Virus record (IMG/VR): IMGVR_UViG_3300037827_000844
Span: 1-24,438 of that record
Length of the DNA stretch: 24,438 bases
Strand: one strand, 5' to 3'
Source: a virus
The position numbers and the translations under genes were made by a program. Within the stretch, counting starts at the first letter, position 1. Each line of letters opens with the position of its first letter. The notes under the pieces were generated by a model. That model did no database searches. It was not told where the DNA came from and saw nothing but the letters and a program-made list of their open reading frames with translations. Of the stretch, positions 893-18,247 are shown piece after piece.

Positions 893-1117
893 ATGCAAAC
901 TGGACAAGTGAAATGGTTTAACGACACGAAAGGCTTTGGCTTCATTGAGAGTGGCGGCAAAGATTTTTTCGTGCACTACAAAGAAATTAAAAAGCAGGGA
1001 TTTAAGACACTTATGCAGGGTGAAAAAGTAAGCTTTAGCATTGGGCAGTGCGATAAGGGCTTGTTGGCAAAAGAGGTGATGTCATTGGCTAATCACCAAC
1101 CCGACGGAAATATTTAG
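893..1117 (+). CDS. Cold-shock-domain nucleic-acid-binding protein
   Basis: The 74-aa product is a single cold-shock domain. It begins [10 protein letters not shown], then carries the RNP1 motif KGFGFI (residues 13-18) and an RNP2-like motif FFVHY (25-29; the usual form is VFVHF). It ends near the normal length of CspA-family proteins (about 70 aa). Such proteins bind single-stranded RNA or DNA and melt RNA secondary structure in the cytoplasm. I chose the ATG at 893 because the family begins only a few residues before the GxVKWFN motif and GAGGG lies just upstream. An ATG at 872 would add seven residues, and the frame is open further upstream without a family match. It closes the rightward group that begins the window and faces the leftward cassette. 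A phage-borne copy may help viral mRNA translation or act on host transcripts; this is inference. Confidence 0.88.
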
Positions 1118-1129
1118 CAGTAGTGTAGG

Positions 1130-1158
1130 AAAAGCGTGGATTGCAATACAACCCACGC
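1130..1158 (-). terminator. Rho-independent terminator of the leftward cassette
   Basis: On the minus strand the arms GCGTGG (1158-1153) and CCACGC (1139-1134) can pair over a 13-base loop and are followed at once by TTTT (1133-1130). It lies ten bases beyond the stop of the last leftward gene and also just after the rightward cold-shock gene, so it separates two converging units. The stem is only six pairs, so strength is uncertain. Confidence 0.6.
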
Positions 1159-1167
1159 GGCAGTAAG

Positions 1168-1467
1168 CTAGAACAAAAACGAAACACAGCTTTTAGAGGA
1201 AGGGAAATTAAGCGAATACTGTTCCTTTGGTTCTTGGGGGGATGAAAGAGCAGTAATTAGGGTGGTCATTTCCTTGTTGAAGAACTGTTCCAAGTCGACG
1301 ATTTGCTCATGGAGCGTGCCATGAACAGACGCAGATTCGGGAATATGAAAGTGGTGGCTATCCTGCACCGTGGATTTAAGTGAAAGCTGGGCAGAGTTTG
1401 CGGCAAGCATTTGAATTTGACCGCGAAGTTGACCCAGAAAGTACATAATTTTTTCATCTTTACTCAT
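1168..1467 (-). CDS. Hypothetical protein, 99 aa (last gene of leftward cassette 1)
   Basis: The ATG at 1467 has a GAGG about ten bases upstream on the minus strand and lies 12 bases after the stop of the previous leftward gene. The product has an amphipathic helical N-terminus (IMYFLGQLRGQIQMLA), a His-rich middle (DSHHFHIPE), a helical stretch with a di-Phe (LEQFFNKEMTTLITAL) and a Ser-rich, Phe-ending tail. There is no convincing membrane segment or catalytic motif, and the family is not recognised. It is followed by the terminator at 1158-1130. Confidence 0.7.
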   Translation of the reverse strand: MSKDEKIMYFLGQLRGQIQMLAANSAQLSLKSTVQDSHHFHIPESASVHGTLHEQIVDLEQFFNKEMTTLITALSSPQEPKEQYSLNFPSSKSCVSFLF

Positions 1468-1479
1468 TGTTGCTAGACC

Positions 1480-1752
1480 TCATTTGTTGTTGGAATTGGT
1501 GAAACCCATTGCCCCGGTCACAGAGGAACAAGGCAAAGAGTTGGCGCGATGATAAGCCATTAGGAAGCGCTTGCAAAATTCTGCAAAGCTATCAATGGCA
1601 GGTTCGGAAATAAATTTTTCTTCGAACTCAGTATCGGTATCATAACCTTCGACGTGAATGTCATAACCGAAGTCTTTATTGCGGTTTAGATAAACGGCGT
1701 GGTCATCTCCCATTAAATCGGCGACTGTAAGGCTGTTTGTGGATTGAATCAT
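1480..1752 (-). CDS. Hypothetical acidic protein, 90 aa
   Basis: The ATG at 1752 overlaps the stop of the upstream gene by four bases (ATGA), a typical coupled junction, and AAGGAG stands about seven bases before it. The product is acidic, with a DFGYDIHVEGYDTDTEF segment and a C-terminal helix (FAEFCKRFLMAYH). It resembles the size and charge of small phage regulators or host-takeover proteins, but no family is recognised. It sits third in a leftward run of tightly packed genes. Confidence 0.72.
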   Translation of the reverse strand: MIQSTNSLTVADLMGDDHAVYLNRNKDFGYDIHVEGYDTDTEFEEKFISEPAIDSFAEFCKRFLMAYHRANSLPCSSVTGAMGFTNSNNK

Positions 1753-1931
1753 GATTTAAGCTCCTTTTCGGTTAAAGTTATTGAATCTTGAGCAGGCTTT
1801 AATGAGTTTAAGCATTTTTTAGGCTCCTCTGAAATGTAGGCGATGGAATTGAAACATTCATGGCACATATTTATAAAATACATGCCGCTCTTAGCTAAGG
1901 TTTTTCTGTAATTGCAATTTGTACACTGCAT
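1749..1931 (-). CDS. Small zinc-finger-like protein, 60 aa
   Basis: The product starts MQCTNC and has two CxxC pairs, C3/C6 and C23/C26, spaced as in a treble-clef or zinc-ribbon knuckle, plus one more cysteine at 40. That pattern supports binding of one zinc ion; the molecular target cannot be read from sequence. AGGAGG lies eight bases before the ATG at 1931. The start codon shares a base with the stop of a nine-codon reading frame (TGATG), and the gene's end overlaps the next gene by four bases, so translation along this operon is probably coupled. No named family is recognised. Confidence 0.72.
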   Translation of the reverse strand: MQCTNCNYRKTLAKSGMYFINMCHECFNSIAYISEEPKKCLNSLKPAQDSITLTEKELKS

Positions 1932-1960
1932 CAGCCAACCCTCCTATTTTCATAACTCAT
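1931..1960 (-). other. Possible nine-codon linking ORF (MSYENRRVG)
   Basis: On the minus strand an ATG at 1960 overlaps the stop of the 32-aa gene (ATGA). Nine codons later the TGA overlaps the start of the 60-aa gene (TGATG). The frame contains the AGGAGG ribosome-binding site of that next gene. It may simply be chance in a tight junction, or it may carry ribosomes between the two genes. Confidence 0.3.
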
Positions 1961-2055
1961 GCAAATCGCTCCTGTATAAATTCATCAACCAATTCTTGCA
2001 AAACATCCCAGTTTATTCCCTCATTTGTATTATATTTGTTAATATCATCACTCAT
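1957..2055 (-). CDS. Tiny acidic protein, 32 aa (first gene of leftward cassette 1)
   Basis: An ATG at 2055 follows GGAG with a six-base spacer, and the frame ends in TGA at 1959-1957. The peptide begins MSDDINKYNTNEG and finishes with an amphipathic acidic helix (WDVLQELVDEFIQERFA). It lies directly downstream of the putative leftward promoter at 2117-2088 and is linked to the next genes by overlapping start and stop codons. It is shorter than usual annotation cut-offs. Length and composition suggest a small regulator or leader peptide, but nothing more can be assigned. Confidence 0.55.
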   Translation of the reverse strand: MSDDINKYNTNEGINWDVLQELVDEFIQERFA

Positions 2056-2087
2056 TTTTATCTCCGCAGTTATTAATCAACAACCAT

Positions 2088-2117
2088 AGTATATTCCAAC
2101 TTACTGGAATATTGCAA
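2088..2117 (-). promoter_or_regulatory. Leftward promoter with embedded operator-like dyad
   Basis: Read on the minus strand, TTGCAA (2117-2112) and TATACT (2093-2088) resemble -35 and -10 boxes 18 bases apart. The spacer is filled by a perfect dyad, ATATTCCA (2091-2098) and TGGAATAT (2105-2112), with a six-base centre ACTTAC. A repressor bound there would block polymerase. A near copy of the dyad lies at 18226-18247, ahead of the other leftward cassette. Confidence 0.6.
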
Positions 2118-2231: not shown

Positions 2232-2438
2232 ATGATGAACAAAATGGGCAACATGATGGGTAAAATGGGTGTTATGGATTATACTGAGGAAAAAGAATAC
2301 AGCCATTACAATGGCGTTCCCTCAATGTATGGCCGTTTGGTTGACGAGCAATGCAGAGATCAGCCTAAATATTGCATGCCAGGTGAAGCGGGTGGTGGTA
2401 TGAGAGGAGCTCATCGAAATGAGCAAGCGCCTGTATAA
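2232..2438 (+). CDS. Met-rich small protein, 68 aa
   Basis: The ATG at 2232 follows AAGGAG (2218-2223) at eight bases. Seven of the first 15 residues are methionine (MMNKMGNMMGKMGVMDY). The rest is polar and Gly-rich near the end (GEAGGGMRGAH) with two cysteines. It has no membrane segment. It is the first rightward gene after the leftward cassette and directly precedes the terminase genes, so it may be part of the packaging transcript. Met-rich peptides can bind copper or make greasy helix contacts; nothing here decides between these. A second Met/Lys-rich small gene lies at 23470-23625. Confidence 0.7.
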   Translation: MMNKMGNMMGKMGVMDYTEEKEYSHYNGVPSMYGRLVDEQCRDQPKYCMPGEAGGGMRGAHRNEQAPV

Positions 2439-3048: not shown

Positions 3049-4578
3049 ATGTCAGATGCAAAAATGTTAGAGATTTTTAAATCTCTCCCGCTATTTGCTA
3101 AGCATTTCTTAAAGATTCGCGCTAAATCTGGTTCTATTGAGCCTTTTATCTTCAATCGAGCGCAATTATACTTACATGACCGATTAGAAACGCAGCTCAA
3201 AGCGCTTGGACGGGTTCGAGCGCTCATACTTAAAGGCCGTCAACAAGGCTGCTCAACTTATGTGCAAGCTCGTGACTTTCACAAAGTTTCTACCTCACGC
3301 GGGAAAAAAGCATTCATTTTAACCCATGAAGCTGAGGCCTCAAAAAACTTATTTAACATGACCAAGCGCTATAATGATGAGCTTCCCCCGGGTCTTTTGC
3401 CCAAGCCTGATACATCTAGTGCTAAAGAATTAAACTTTAATGTATTAAACTCTGGCTATGCTGTGGGCACGGCAGGCAATAAATCGGTTGGCCGTTCACA
3501 AACCATTCAGCTATTTCACGGCTCTGAAGTGGCTTACTGGCCAAATGCTGAAGAGCATGCCAAGGGAATATTGCAGGCAGTTCCCAATGAAATAGGCACA
3601 GAAATAATCTTAGAATCAACGGCTAATGGCATCGGCAACTACTTTTATGATATGTGGATGTCTGCAATTTCAGGCCAATCAGACTTTCAAGCAATCTTTA
3701 TACCTTGGTATTGGCAACCCGAATATCGGACAACAAGCCAAGAATTAGAGACAATGCCTTTGGTTGATGACGAAGAGGCACTGTTATCGCAGCATAGTAA
3801 GGATGGTCTCACCAAACAGCATTTATTCTGGCGACGAAAGAAATTATTAGAATTCAGTAAAGACTATGAAACAGGCAATGAACTTTTCAATGTTGAATAT
3901 CCAATGACCGCTTTGGATGCCTTTCGAAATCCAGTGGCTGACCGATTCATCAAGGCGCATTTGATAATCAAAGCACGAAAGAATAAAGTTGATTCAGGCG
4001 CGCCGTTGGTTATTGGTGTAGACCCTGCAATTGGTGACCATGACAGGCTTGCAATAATTAGGCGCAAAGGACGTCATGTTTACAAACCAGAGACACATTT
4101 TAACTTCAACACCATGGAAGCCGTTGGGCTCATTCGCCGAATAATAGAGCGCGAAAATCCATCTAAGGTGTGCATTGATTGCATTGGCATAGGGGCTGGA
4201 ATCGTTGACCGCTTGCATGAAATTGGTTATGACTTAGTTGAGGGCGTGAATGTCGCACGAACGGCTAACGAAAAAGATAAATTCAGAAACCTAAGAGCTG
4301 AGCTTTGGCATGACATGCGAGAATGGTTAGCGCAAGAAATGCCAGTAGAGTTGCCAGACAATGATGAGCTTCAAGGGGACTTGACAAGCTTAGGCTATAA
4401 GTTTGACAGTTCGGGACGTCTCCAGATTGAATCAAAAGACGAGCTTCGAAAACGCGGGATGAAATCACCGGATTTAGGGGATGCCCTTGCATTAACGTTC
4501 TTTGTGGGCGATTATTTGCAGGATGGTGGTTATACGCCAACAAAGATACCAGATAAAGCGGCGGGGATGTTTATCTAG
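3049..4578 (+). CDS. terL: Terminase large subunit, P22 gp2-like (ATPase/nuclease)
   Basis: The 509-aa product is the DNA-packaging motor. A Walker A-like motif GRQQGCST is at residues 63-70. A Walker B region around QLFHGSEVAYW ends in the presumed catalytic Glu160, and the coupling motif ESTANG is at 189-194. The C-terminal RNase H-like nuclease shows three acidic positions expected for metal binding: D325 (GVDPAIGD), D377 (VCIDCIG) and D478 (DLGDALALTF). Length is close to P22 gp2 (499 aa). It docks on the portal, translocates DNA with ATP and cuts the concatemer. AAGGA lies five bases before the ATG. It is preceded by terS and followed after 27 bases by portal. All key motifs appear intact. 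Confidence 0.95.
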   Translation: MSDAKMLEIFKSLPLFAKHFLKIRAKSGSIEPFIFNRAQLYLHDRLETQLKALGRVRALILKGRQQGCSTYVQARDFHKVSTSRGKKAFILTHEAEASKNLFNMTKRYNDELPPGLLPKPDTSSAKELNFNVLNSGYAVGTAGNKSVGRSQTIQLFHGSEVAYWPNAEEHAKGILQAVPNEIGTEIILESTANGIGNYFYDMWMSAISGQSDFQAIFIPWYWQPEYRTTSQELETMPLVDDEEALLSQHSKDGLTKQHLFWRRKKLLEFSKDYETGNELFNVEYPMTALDAFRNPVADRFIKAHLIIKARKNKVDSGAPLVIGVDPAIGDHDRLAIIRRKGRHVYKPETHFNFNTMEAVGLIRRIIERENPSKVCIDCIGIGAGIVDRLHEIGYDLVEGVNVARTANEKDKFRNLRAELWHDMREWLAQEMPVELPDNDELQGDLTSLGYKFDSSGRLQIESKDELRKRGMKSPDLGDALALTFFVGDYLQDGGYTPTKIPDKAAGMFI

Positions 4579-8542: not shown

Positions 8543-9790
8543 ATGGCTAATATCTTTCAAGAAACCCAGTATGTGCTAGATGATGTATTCATCCGCTTCT
8601 GGAACTCGCTTGCATTTGCAAGAACTGCTAATAGAAATCTCGAAGGTGATTTTAAAAACCTACGCTTTGCAACAGGTCAAACACTTGATTATCGTTTAGA
8701 AGAACGTTATCTCGCTGGCGAAGGTGCGTCTGCTACCTCTGAAGCGCGAGTACAGGTAATAAGACCACTTTCGATTACCAAGCAATTCCGAACTATGATT
8801 GAATATACAGGTTTTAACCTTACTTTCGATCGGGCTCGGGATGAGCCTTATCTTGAAATGGCTAATGCCCCTCGTGCTAAACGTCTAGCAAACTTAGTTG
8901 AGAAGTTCATTGCCTCTGACAATTTCCAACTTCAAACCTATCAAGCAGTAGGAACTCCAGGCGTTCCAGTCGATTTTAATACCATCTTGACTGCTGATGC
9001 CTACATGACCGAATTGGCCATTCCAGAAGATGGTAAGCGCTACGGTGCTCTTCCTCCTCGAGTCGCGGCCAATCTTTCCAATGACTTATTTAGTGTCTTC
9101 AATAACTCCGTTAACACCGGCGCATTGATTGACGGCTTCATTGGTCATTTGTCAGGCTTTGATTTCTTCAAAACTAACTTTTTGACCCGACAAATCGCAG
9201 GCGCCGGTCAGTTGGGCGGTACGCCTCCTGCTGGATTCTTGCTTGCTGGCACGGTAACGAATGGTCCAATAGTAGGTGGAAACACTATTTCTGTGACTGG
9301 CTTAGGACAAGCCGCAGGAACTGTAGTATTCAACGTTGGAGATATTATCGAAGTAGCTCCTGCCGCTGGTGTGTTTATGGTCAACCCATTGACATATGAG
9401 CCTTTAATACAAGGTGCGCAATTTGTAGTGACAGCACAGGTTATCTCTGCAAACGGAAGTACTGCTGATATTCCTGTTAATCCTACTATTGTTGTTGATG
9501 GTGCTCGACAAAACATTTCTGCTCCAATTCCAAACGGCGCTCAAATGTTACTTCGTGCAAGCCATAATGTATCGATTGCTTATCACACTCAAGCGATTGT
9601 GTTCGCAGCTCCTCCTATTAAGGAATTAAGAGGCGGTGTTGAAGCGGTTACTCGATATTCTGACCTTTATAAGTTAGCAATGACTTATTCATTAGGTGCT
9701 GATATCCGTAACTACGAACAGCTTGACCGTATTGACGTTATATGCGGTGTGGCAATCAATCCAGAGTTTGCAGTACGTATTTGCTCATAG
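8543..9790 (+). CDS. Major capsid (coat) protein, P22 gp5-like
   Basis: The 415-aa product has the size of P22 coat (430 aa) and its layout. An N-terminal region contains the shell-forming core (QVIRPLSITKQFRTMIEYTGFNLTF and a DRARDEP loop). A beta-rich middle around 235-345 (VGGNTISVTGLG, VVFNVGDIIEV) is equivalent to the inserted I-domain. A C-terminal core follows (ELRGGVEAVTRYSDLYKLAMTYSLGADIRNYEQLDRIDVICG). It forms the icosahedral shell. The ATG at 8543 is chosen over an upstream TTG at 8492 because AGGGAG stands six bases before it. The gene has its own apparent promoter and is followed by a GC-rich hairpin, consistent with very high expression. Confidence 0.92.
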   Translation: MANIFQETQYVLDDVFIRFWNSLAFARTANRNLEGDFKNLRFATGQTLDYRLEERYLAGEGASATSEARVQVIRPLSITKQFRTMIEYTGFNLTFDRARDEPYLEMANAPRAKRLANLVEKFIASDNFQLQTYQAVGTPGVPVDFNTILTADAYMTELAIPEDGKRYGALPPRVAANLSNDLFSVFNNSVNTGALIDGFIGHLSGFDFFKTNFLTRQIAGAGQLGGTPPAGFLLAGTVTNGPIVGGNTISVTGLGQAAGTVVFNVGDIIEVAPAAGVFMVNPLTYEPLIQGAQFVVTAQVISANGSTADIPVNPTIVVDGARQNISAPIPNGAQMLLRASHNVSIAYHTQAIVFAAPPIKELRGGVEAVTRYSDLYKLAMTYSLGADIRNYEQLDRIDVICGVAINPEFAVRICS

Positions 9791-9797
9791 GGAAAAA

Positions 9798-9820
9798 GCC
9801 CGGTGAAAGCCGGGCGCTTT
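9798..9820 (+). terminator. GC-rich hairpin after coat, probable leaky terminator
   Basis: GCCCGG (9798-9803) pairs with CCGGGC (9810-9815) over a six-base loop, followed by GCTTT rather than a pure T-run. Seven bases past the coat stop, it probably ends part of the coat transcript while letting some polymerase through to the tail genes. Confidence 0.6.
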
Positions 9821-9832
9821 AAAGGGATTTTT

Positions 9833-10162
9833 ATGAATTCGAACGAAGAAAGTGTTTTTTACAATGGTCAACAAATCCTTAAAAAGCATTTTCGAGTTTT
9901 TATCTATCATGCAGATGGTAGTGAAAAGCTTGTCAATGATTATGACGTTTATCAAAGTCATATTGCGAGCGGGGTTTGGTTTGAGACGAAAGATCAAAGA
10001 GATTCGCGAAAGAAAATCAATAAGCCGAAAAAGCCGCCAATCGAAGCGGAAAAAGAAGGCTGTAAAACAAAAAGAGAGCTAAAGGAAGCAGTAAAGGGCG
10101 AAGGAATGCCCACCCATTTATCGGATGAAATGCATTTAACGGATGAAATGACAGGTGAATAA
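9833..10162 (+). CDS. Hypothetical protein between coat and connector, 109 aa
   Basis: The start is the ATG at 9833 with AAAGGG about six bases upstream; an in-frame GTG at 9803 lies inside the hairpin and is unlikely. The N-terminal half looks folded (VFYNGQQILKKHFRVFIYHADGSEKLVNDYDVYQSH). The second half is Lys/Glu-rich and probably disordered, with a short internal repeat near the end (LSDEMHLTDEM). The stop overlaps the next start by one base. P22 has no gene here, so this is an addition to the standard order. It could be a minor head protein. No family is recognised. Confidence 0.75.
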   Translation: MNSNEESVFYNGQQILKKHFRVFIYHADGSEKLVNDYDVYQSHIASGVWFETKDQRDSRKKINKPKKPPIEAEKEGCKTKRELKEAVKGEGMPTHLSDEMHLTDEMTGE

Positions 10163-17547: not shown

Positions 17548-17706
17548 TTAATCTCTCGAAACAATTTTATAATAACTAGACCAATAAAGACTTATTCCCG
17601 CAAAGGCTATTACGCCCATTAAAATGAATATAAAGCTTTCAAATGACATATTATTCAAATCATTAACAACATAAAGAGTAAGTAAAATATAAAAAGTTTT
17701 TTTCAT
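17548..17706 (-). CDS. Small membrane protein, 52 aa
   Basis: The ATG at 17706 (MKKTFYILLTLYVV) has GAGG seven bases upstream on the minus strand; the frame is open further upstream but that part lies across the gap to the next gene and reads poorly. Two hydrophobic stretches are visible, residues 4-14 and about 22-44 (SFIFILMGVIAFAGISLYW), the second a convincing membrane helix. The tail is short and polar (YYKIVSRD). Last gene of the second leftward cassette. Small membrane proteins next to coiled-coil/TM proteins suggest a holin-like or envelope-altering function, but no family is recognised. Confidence 0.65.
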   Translation of the reverse strand: MKKTFYILLTLYVVNDLNNMSFESFIFILMGVIAFAGISLYWSSYYKIVSRD

Positions 17707-17974: not shown

Positions 17975-18208
17975 CTATAATAAGTGTAAAGAATGCAAAA
18001 CAACGGGCATCACAATAGAAGTGATAATTAAGCCAATCAACAAAATAAATCTTGAGTCAATCTTAGAGTCTAATTTATCAATTTGATTCTGAAGTGTTTG
18101 AAAATTCCGATTAATATCATCATTTCTAGAATTCAAAACCCTCAATTGGACTTCATGTTCAATGTATTGTTCAGTTACGCTCGAATCTGTTAAAGTAGTA
18201 GCATTCAT
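17975..18208 (-). CDS. Coiled-coil protein with C-terminal membrane helix, 77 aa (paralogue of neighbour)
   Basis: First gene of the second leftward cassette. Residues 15-52 are helical with heptad spacing (VQLRVLNSRNDDINRNFQTL, then IDKLDSKIDS), and residues 54-74 form a membrane helix (FILLIGLIITSIVMPVVLHSL). The KIDSRF boundary matches KMDSNF in the next gene, so the two are likely tandem duplicates. The start at 18208 lies only 14 bases beyond the putative -10 box, leaving a leader barely long enough for the weak GGAA ribosome-binding sequence. Translation may be nearly leaderless. Function is unknown; holin-like or exclusion roles fit. Confidence 0.66.
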   Translation of the reverse strand: MNATTLTDSSVTEQYIEHEVQLRVLNSRNDDINRNFQTLQNQIDKLDSKIDSRFILLIGLIITSIVMPVVLHSLHLL

Positions 18209-18216
18209 AAGTAGAG

Positions 18217-18247
18217 TTCCAAGTTATATTCCAACTTATTAGAACAT
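18217..18247 (-). promoter_or_regulatory. Leftward promoter region with operator-like dyad, second copy
   Basis: ATATTCCA (18226-18233), ACTTAT and TAGAACAT (18240-18247) form an imperfect dyad matching the one at 2091-2112 in most positions, including an identical ATATTCCAACTTA. On the minus strand TATAAC (18228-18223) is a good -10 box; the -35 is weak. An extra half-site TTCCAAGTTAT at 18218-18228 repeats the left half 12 bases away. Confidence 0.55.

Follow-up and report, generated by a model that had tools for sequence, protein, structure and literature searches.

The early operons of phages lambda and P22 are controlled by Cro at the OL and OR operators, which overlap the promoters. Dispersed repressor sites are already known as well, from the Cluster A mycobacteriophages, where one repressor is described as serving an operator and many scattered stoperators whose consensus varies between phages (PMC5712189), and so are exclusion genes expressed from the prophage, with the morons HK97 gp15 and P22 sieA among the examples given (PMC10883804). 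We analyzed a 24,438-base stretch of viral DNA (the window) that carries, on its minus strand from 2117 to 1134, a cassette of four small genes together with a promoter and a terminator (Table 1). Like lambda and P22, the clade to which it belongs has a P22_Cro-like gene between divergent early operons, exonuclease and RecT genes in the leftward one, and operators that overlap promoters. Two things set the clade apart from lambda and P22: no cI was found, and at a distance from the early region, ahead of the packaging genes, there is a third unit of small genes that bears an operator. As with morons, the cassette is small, has its own promoter and terminator and sits among operons of the other direction, whereas its locus is fixed in the clade and its promoter is apparently under the early regulator. 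The operator is dispersed and varies in sequence between phages, like the Cluster A stoperators; unlike those, its sites are few, overlap promoters and would be read by a Cro-type protein.

The window terminase is at most 45% identical to those of named phages, the nearest being from a Vibrio and a Pseudoalteromonas phage, and the portal protein matches P22_portal. Pseudoalteromonas phage vB_PspP-H6/1 (KX257490) resembles the window in its terminase (45% identical), its P22-like portal and a reversed block of four small genes, but the block occupies another slot, between portal and scaffold (L050 4789-5478). No g90 relative was found in the phage collection.

Table 1 Features of the window
Feature	Position	Strand	Evidence or remark
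Cold-shock-domain (CSD) gene, end of converging operon	893-1117	+	Conserved flank of the locus
Intrinsic terminator, 11-bp stem and TTTT	1134-1158	-	Sequence scan
g99, 99 aa, last gene, predicted helical hairpin	1168-1467	-	Same position as other last genes, no shown homology to them
g90, 90 aa	1480-1752	-	Conserved across the cassettes found (loci selected by g90); 59 loci, alignment A5, model pLDDT 76
g60, 60 aa, Cys-rich N-terminus, probably zinc-binding	1749-1931	-	Relatives in L003, L059, L060
g32, 32 aa, ends DEFIQERFA	1957-2055	-	Homologue L003 6334-6420, 61% over the alignment
Promoter, sigma-70-like, TTGCAA-18-TATACT	2088-2117	-	Equivalents at the same place in relatives
Operator-like dyad ATATTCCA-6-TGGAATAT, between -35 and -10	2091-2112		Predicted Cro-type operator; shared-operator tests in relatives
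g68, divergent first gene before terminase	2232-2438	+	Conserved flank
Terminase large subunit (TerL)	3049-4578	+	Conserved flank
Cassette B gene 3, 52 aa, hydrophobic	17548-17706	-	Start chosen within a longer ORF
Cassette B gene 2 (m81), 81 aa	17724-17969	-	Relative inside the main cassette of L023
Cassette B gene 1, 77 aa, coiled coil-like, C-terminal hydrophobic stretch	17975-18208	-
Second operator copy ATATTCCAACTTATTAGAACAT, 19/22	18226-18247		0/400 Markov simulations reach 19/22

A reversed four-gene unit in the window

The original prediction, made from the window alone, described a reversed unit complete in itself, from promoter to terminator, with genes of 32, 60, 90 and 99 aa at overlapping or tightly packed junctions. 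The unit was found, the position of its promoter is conserved in relatives, and the four ORFs were confirmed. The g60 and g90 genes overlap by 4 nt (ATGA), 12 nt separate g90 from g99, and a script scan placed a Shine–Dalgarno-like motif before the ATG start of each of the four genes. The promoter dyad has perfect 8-bp arms and, taken alone, reached P ~0.06 in mononucleotide shuffles. From the window sequence alone we counted 11 promoter-like sites (10.0 in shuffles) and 6 terminator-like sites (4.1 in shuffles). Because these counts do not stand above shuffled sequence, the case for the unit rests on comparison with relatives.

An independent contig of 20.4 kb (L003, also G002) carries g32, g60, g90 and g99 in the same order as the window. 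It has an extra 70-aa gene between g32 and g60, of which only the first and last bases are left in the window, around a GAAAA repeat; the loss from the window looks like a deletion. Over 169 aligned codons the two cassettes differ at 52, 39 and 89 first, second and third positions, respectively, and they share an identical stretch of 35 nt across the end of g32. Conservation shows the four cassette genes to be coding. The first of the two CxxC motifs ascribed to the 60-aa protein reads CxxH in L003, so CxxC is not the conserved form. In the L003 contig, which is a fragment, no relative of the window terminase, portal or capsid genes was detected, and the contig carries a relative of m81. Given its fragmentary state and the m81 relative, the L003 phage may be a distant cousin of the window phage.

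The products had been called unrecognizable, and the profile searches proposed at that time agree: against Pfam, PHROGs, PADLOC and NCBIfam the four cassette proteins gave weak subthreshold matches only, with no described family above the cut-off. The best family match of g32 was PHROG 10258, of unknown function, at a subthreshold E of 0.0035, and a sequence search of the PDB with alignments A5, A6 and A2 returned nothing below E 0.01. The g90 model is a short alpha-beta protein (pLDDT 76) without a confident fold match. Foldseek gave no match with E <= 0.001 (best 0.39), and since the best Z-scores of the fold search, 5.0 for a COMM-domain and 4.1 for Pur-alpha chains, lie within the stated noise of the tool, no fold is claimed. 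Homology of g99 to the last genes of other cassettes (alignment A6) was considered and rejected, as profile comparison spoke against it (probability 1.5, E 0.033); position and a predicted helical hairpin are all they have in common, and the g99 model was built on A6, an alignment of unproven homologues. Relatives of g90 were sought more widely. None of 105 pattern matches in GTDB genome contigs was confirmed, none was found in plasmids, and in named phages there were none, the eight hits being tail proteins with E 0.3-0.5. No description of the cassette or of g90 was found in searches of the open-licence literature.

Position, gene content and possible host of the locus in related phages

A profile search of viral contigs with g90 yielded 18 loci from a 4-member alignment and 59 from a 15-member alignment, all of them in uncultured viral contigs. 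Of the 59 contigs, 43 show TerL, 39 show g68 and 40 show CSD, and in each of these (43/43, 39/39 and 40/40) g90 is reversed at one place, between CSD and the packaging genes. In the testable contigs g90 lies on the opposite strand, with g68 and TerL upstream and CSD downstream. In loci with both flanks, called genes cover on average 72% of the cassette strand versus 11% of the other strand (38 loci). Reversed cassettes of small genes lacking a g90 match occupy the same site in L007, found by its terminase, and in L052, found by its capsid. One contig departs from this arrangement: in L090, g90 lies between Cro and an exonuclease gene, inside the early operon.

Gene content was counted over 39 loci with both flanks (38 and the window). 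It comprises 51 families, 36 of them singletons; the frequency of g90 among these loci results from their selection by g90. Where a J-domain protein (Pfam DnaJ) is present, it comes first in the cassette (9/9 loci), and one small family takes the last position in 17/17. The original prediction had seen the architecture of a moron. Its own promoter and terminator and the variable content stand, but an element inserted at varying sites does not, as the site is the same in all testable g90 contigs and in the two cassettes without g90. Looking for the cassette at other positions in phages, as the prediction had suggested, led instead to a fixed locus of the whole clade with L090 as the early-operon exception. 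Nor are the homologues all genes of co-directional lytic early operons, the finding named in advance as contrary to the moron reading; L090 is the only such case.

Several further features of these phages were observed. In three contigs (L019 8602-8985, L020 8795-9187 and L027 2519-2899) the final gene of the cassette carries, fused to it, an N-terminal domain that to the eye looks like a protein from the early operon headed by Cro (compare L030 2870-3229). The g68 gene encodes a conserved protein of 58-68 aa (HYNGVPSMYG...QPKYC.PGEA...NEQ) with no family match; it is strongly conserved and comes first in the packaging operon wherever seen. The major capsid protein (window 8543-9790) is ~80-93% identical across phages whose terminases are ~50-85% identical, an unusually uneven conservation.

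Matches to integrase (PF00589), HTH_3 and S24 were absent from 16/16 records searched, some of them fragments. ParA was present in 5/16 records and in G016, and was not found in the window fragment; a neighboring partner of 66-68 aa stands beside it in four of these records. The pair of ParA and a small ribbon-helix-helix-like partner, without integrase, is seen in L036-L037 (G008) at 25714-26539 and also in G011, G014 and G016. A purely lytic lifestyle, considered on the absence of integrase, was given up once ParA was found, as ParA makes plasmid lysogeny possible despite that absence. Part of the clade may therefore be phage-plasmids. Phage-plasmids with partition genes are described in a virome study of cryoconite (PMC4490671).

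A capsid search of genome contigs gave three loci. One is a phage-only contig of 36,484 bases in the single-cell genome BBSC-SA01, classed by its authors as Legionellales bacterium UBA4722 (PMC7453286), and it has Cro, a reversed cassette and ParA. Its presence in the genome of a single cell bears at most indirectly on maintenance as an episome. The remaining two, MAG contigs assigned to bins of different phyla, carry little weight. The putative Legionellales link of the clade thus rests on one cell; searches of the open-licence literature brought up no phage of this kind for Legionellales.

Repeats common to the cassette promoter and the early region

In relatives, the early region consists of a leftward exonuclease/RecT/helicase operon, a short gap and a rightward operon that begins with a 60-71-aa protein matching P22_Cro. 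This domain was present in 9/16 records, 7 over the cut-off, and was not found in the window fragment. A phage's cassette-promoter repeat occurs again in its early divergent gap, beside the P22-Cro-like gene; the repeat varies between phages, being inverted in some and direct in others. In the relatives inspected, it lies within ~20-60 nt of the first cassette ATG, with -35 and -10 elements reading into the cassette.

The idea of a shared operator arose from inspecting the first phages, and 18 contigs fetched later served as replication. In a nine-by-nine match test with 78-nt cassette promoters, the sum of own cassette-to-early matches was 302 against a mean of 194 (1/200,000 permutations as high), and the own early region was the best or joint best for 7/9 phages, the exceptions being G011 and G014. 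In 8/8 contigs tested, the cassette promoter came top when the stretches upstream of 36-58 genes were ranked. In the 18 new, nonduplicate contigs, own pairs averaged 31.1 and cross pairs 21.8 (0/100,000 permutations), and in the wider set of 24 contigs 0/100,000 permutations reached the own-pair score. These 24 were kept from 28 rows after dropping L090, whose cassette gene is in the early region, L095, whose promoter falls beyond the end of the contig, and the near-duplicates L077 and L099.

Ranking was less uniform in the automatic versions. The first, with imperfect start calls, put the cassette promoter at rank 1 in 13/22 new loci (12/21 without L090), and a wider-window version did so in 9/24 contigs (6/18 new), in part because divergent g68 windows contain the same promoter and tie with it. 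In a scan of the whole locus, the best other match to the early region fell in the gap between cassette and g68 in 15/24 contigs, where 0.96 was expected; in the other 9/24 it lay elsewhere, with scores of at most 28, so that no strong site is seen anywhere in them. The similarity of gap to early region between phages tracks Cro identity (rho 0.41, 0/5,000 Mantel permutations), and the partial rho is 0.35 after g90 identity is allowed for. In G002, the L003 contig, the best other match of the cassette promoter (27/39) is its own early promoter beside the exonuclease gene; the same four genes thus stand under different operators in two phages.

Other elements were noted in these regions. The gap between cassette and g68 commonly contains the inverted pair TTATCCACAAAATCnGTGGATAA, which we take to be DnaA-box-like (L021 6859-7080 and equivalents in L002, L019, L020 and L024-L028). 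A nearly constant palindrome, TTATTAATCGATTAATAA, lies close to g68 in the same gap and differs from the cassette repeat. Control of the late promoter or an origin element is a possible role for the palindrome or the pair. Accessory ORFs beside the Cro-like gene of a phage contig (L048, G002, 8969-9933) resemble those of IS66-type elements.

The window record ends before the early region, so any Cro and early operator of its own would lie outside the 24,438 bases; against the early regions of the relatives tested, its promoter scores at most 24. Within the window, the 22-base operator site recurs once, directly before a second reversed gene set (cassette B, 18208-17548). The first two products of that set resemble coiled-coil proteins that end in a hydrophobic stretch. 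An operator before cassette B as a general rule was rejected, since none was found upstream of m81 in 4/4 other contigs.

Readings of the cassette

We consider it likely that the cassette is a Cro-regulated accessory early operon, the third early transcription unit of a clade of P22-like podophages. Soon after genome entry, host sigma-70 polymerase would fire the strong leftward cassette promoter at the same time as the two early promoters on either side of the P22-Cro-like repressor gene. Accumulating Cro would then occupy the operator common to all three promoters and shut them off, and in members possibly living as plasmids it would hold all three off during quiescence. The products would be small, quickly exchanged accessory proteins, g90 being the most conserved among the loci found. 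The fixed reversed locus, operator sharing and its tracking of Cro identity, the P22_Cro genes, the early-operon g90 of L090, the early operator on the four-gene cassette of G002 and the second operator in the window count for this reading; the end of the window record before the early region, the window scores, the nine contigs with their best match elsewhere, G011 and G014, the m81 genes without an operator and the g90 model without a confident fold match count against it. For such a switch, sequence support is good in relatives and less direct in the window. Sequence shows the unit with its fixed place and variable content, the shared and co-varying operator of relatives, and the second window copy; Cro as the binding protein, early expression and action of the products on the host are what we infer. 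The presumed timing, the size and the turnover of the products suggest that they are probably host-takeover or counter-defence factors that act early.

A classical moron would be a unit transcribed from its own promoter in the dormant phage, independently of phage repressors, for instance for superinfection exclusion. The promoter and terminator, the many singleton families and the ParA genes, which point to quiescence as a plasmid in some members of the clade, are all compatible with it. Against it, the promoter carries the early-region operator in relatives, the locus keeps one place throughout the clade and does not look like an insertion, and integrase and S24-type repressors went unmatched in all 16 records. 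A fixed locus with an early operator in its promoter predicts an early operon as opposed to a repressor-independent prophage gene; we regard the moron reading as unlikely.

The operator could also be read by a repressor other than Cro. More broadly, the repeat may be the site of another regulator, such as a phage activator, a host factor or an anti-repressor, making the cassette a delayed or middle operon. The change between inverted and direct forms would suit this, and Cro binding is a prediction, but the repeats overlap the -35 and -10 elements in the manner of repressor sites, the closest gene for a regulator is P22_Cro-like and operator similarity tracks Cro identity, which leaves such a regulator a slim prospect. 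That the intergenic stretch is conserved mainly for the divergent late operon from g68 onwards, with the cassette genes as passengers, is very improbable: DnaA-box-like and palindromic elements do lie on the g68 side in many relatives, but the repeat sits close to the first cassette ATG under a promoter reading into the cassette in the relatives inspected, and the g68-side palindrome is a different, nearly constant sequence.

Under Cro regulation of the cassette, a region of "unknown small genes" becomes a regulatory unit open to testing, whose repressor and operator vary together over dozens of natural variants. It also singles out a few conserved early proteins, headed by g90, in phages tied by one cell to Legionellales; should g90 act in host takeover or counter-defence, it would found a new family of such proteins. 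We give roughly even chances to a more specific picture, an operator-matched accessory slot at which tiny host-takeover genes, exchangeable with other phages, are swapped at one reversed locus while the slot keeps or adopts the operator of the resident Cro, with g90 as an undescribed core early factor and some members perhaps phage-plasmids of Legionellales. If this is true, the private repressor code of each phage would gate its private anti-host arsenal.
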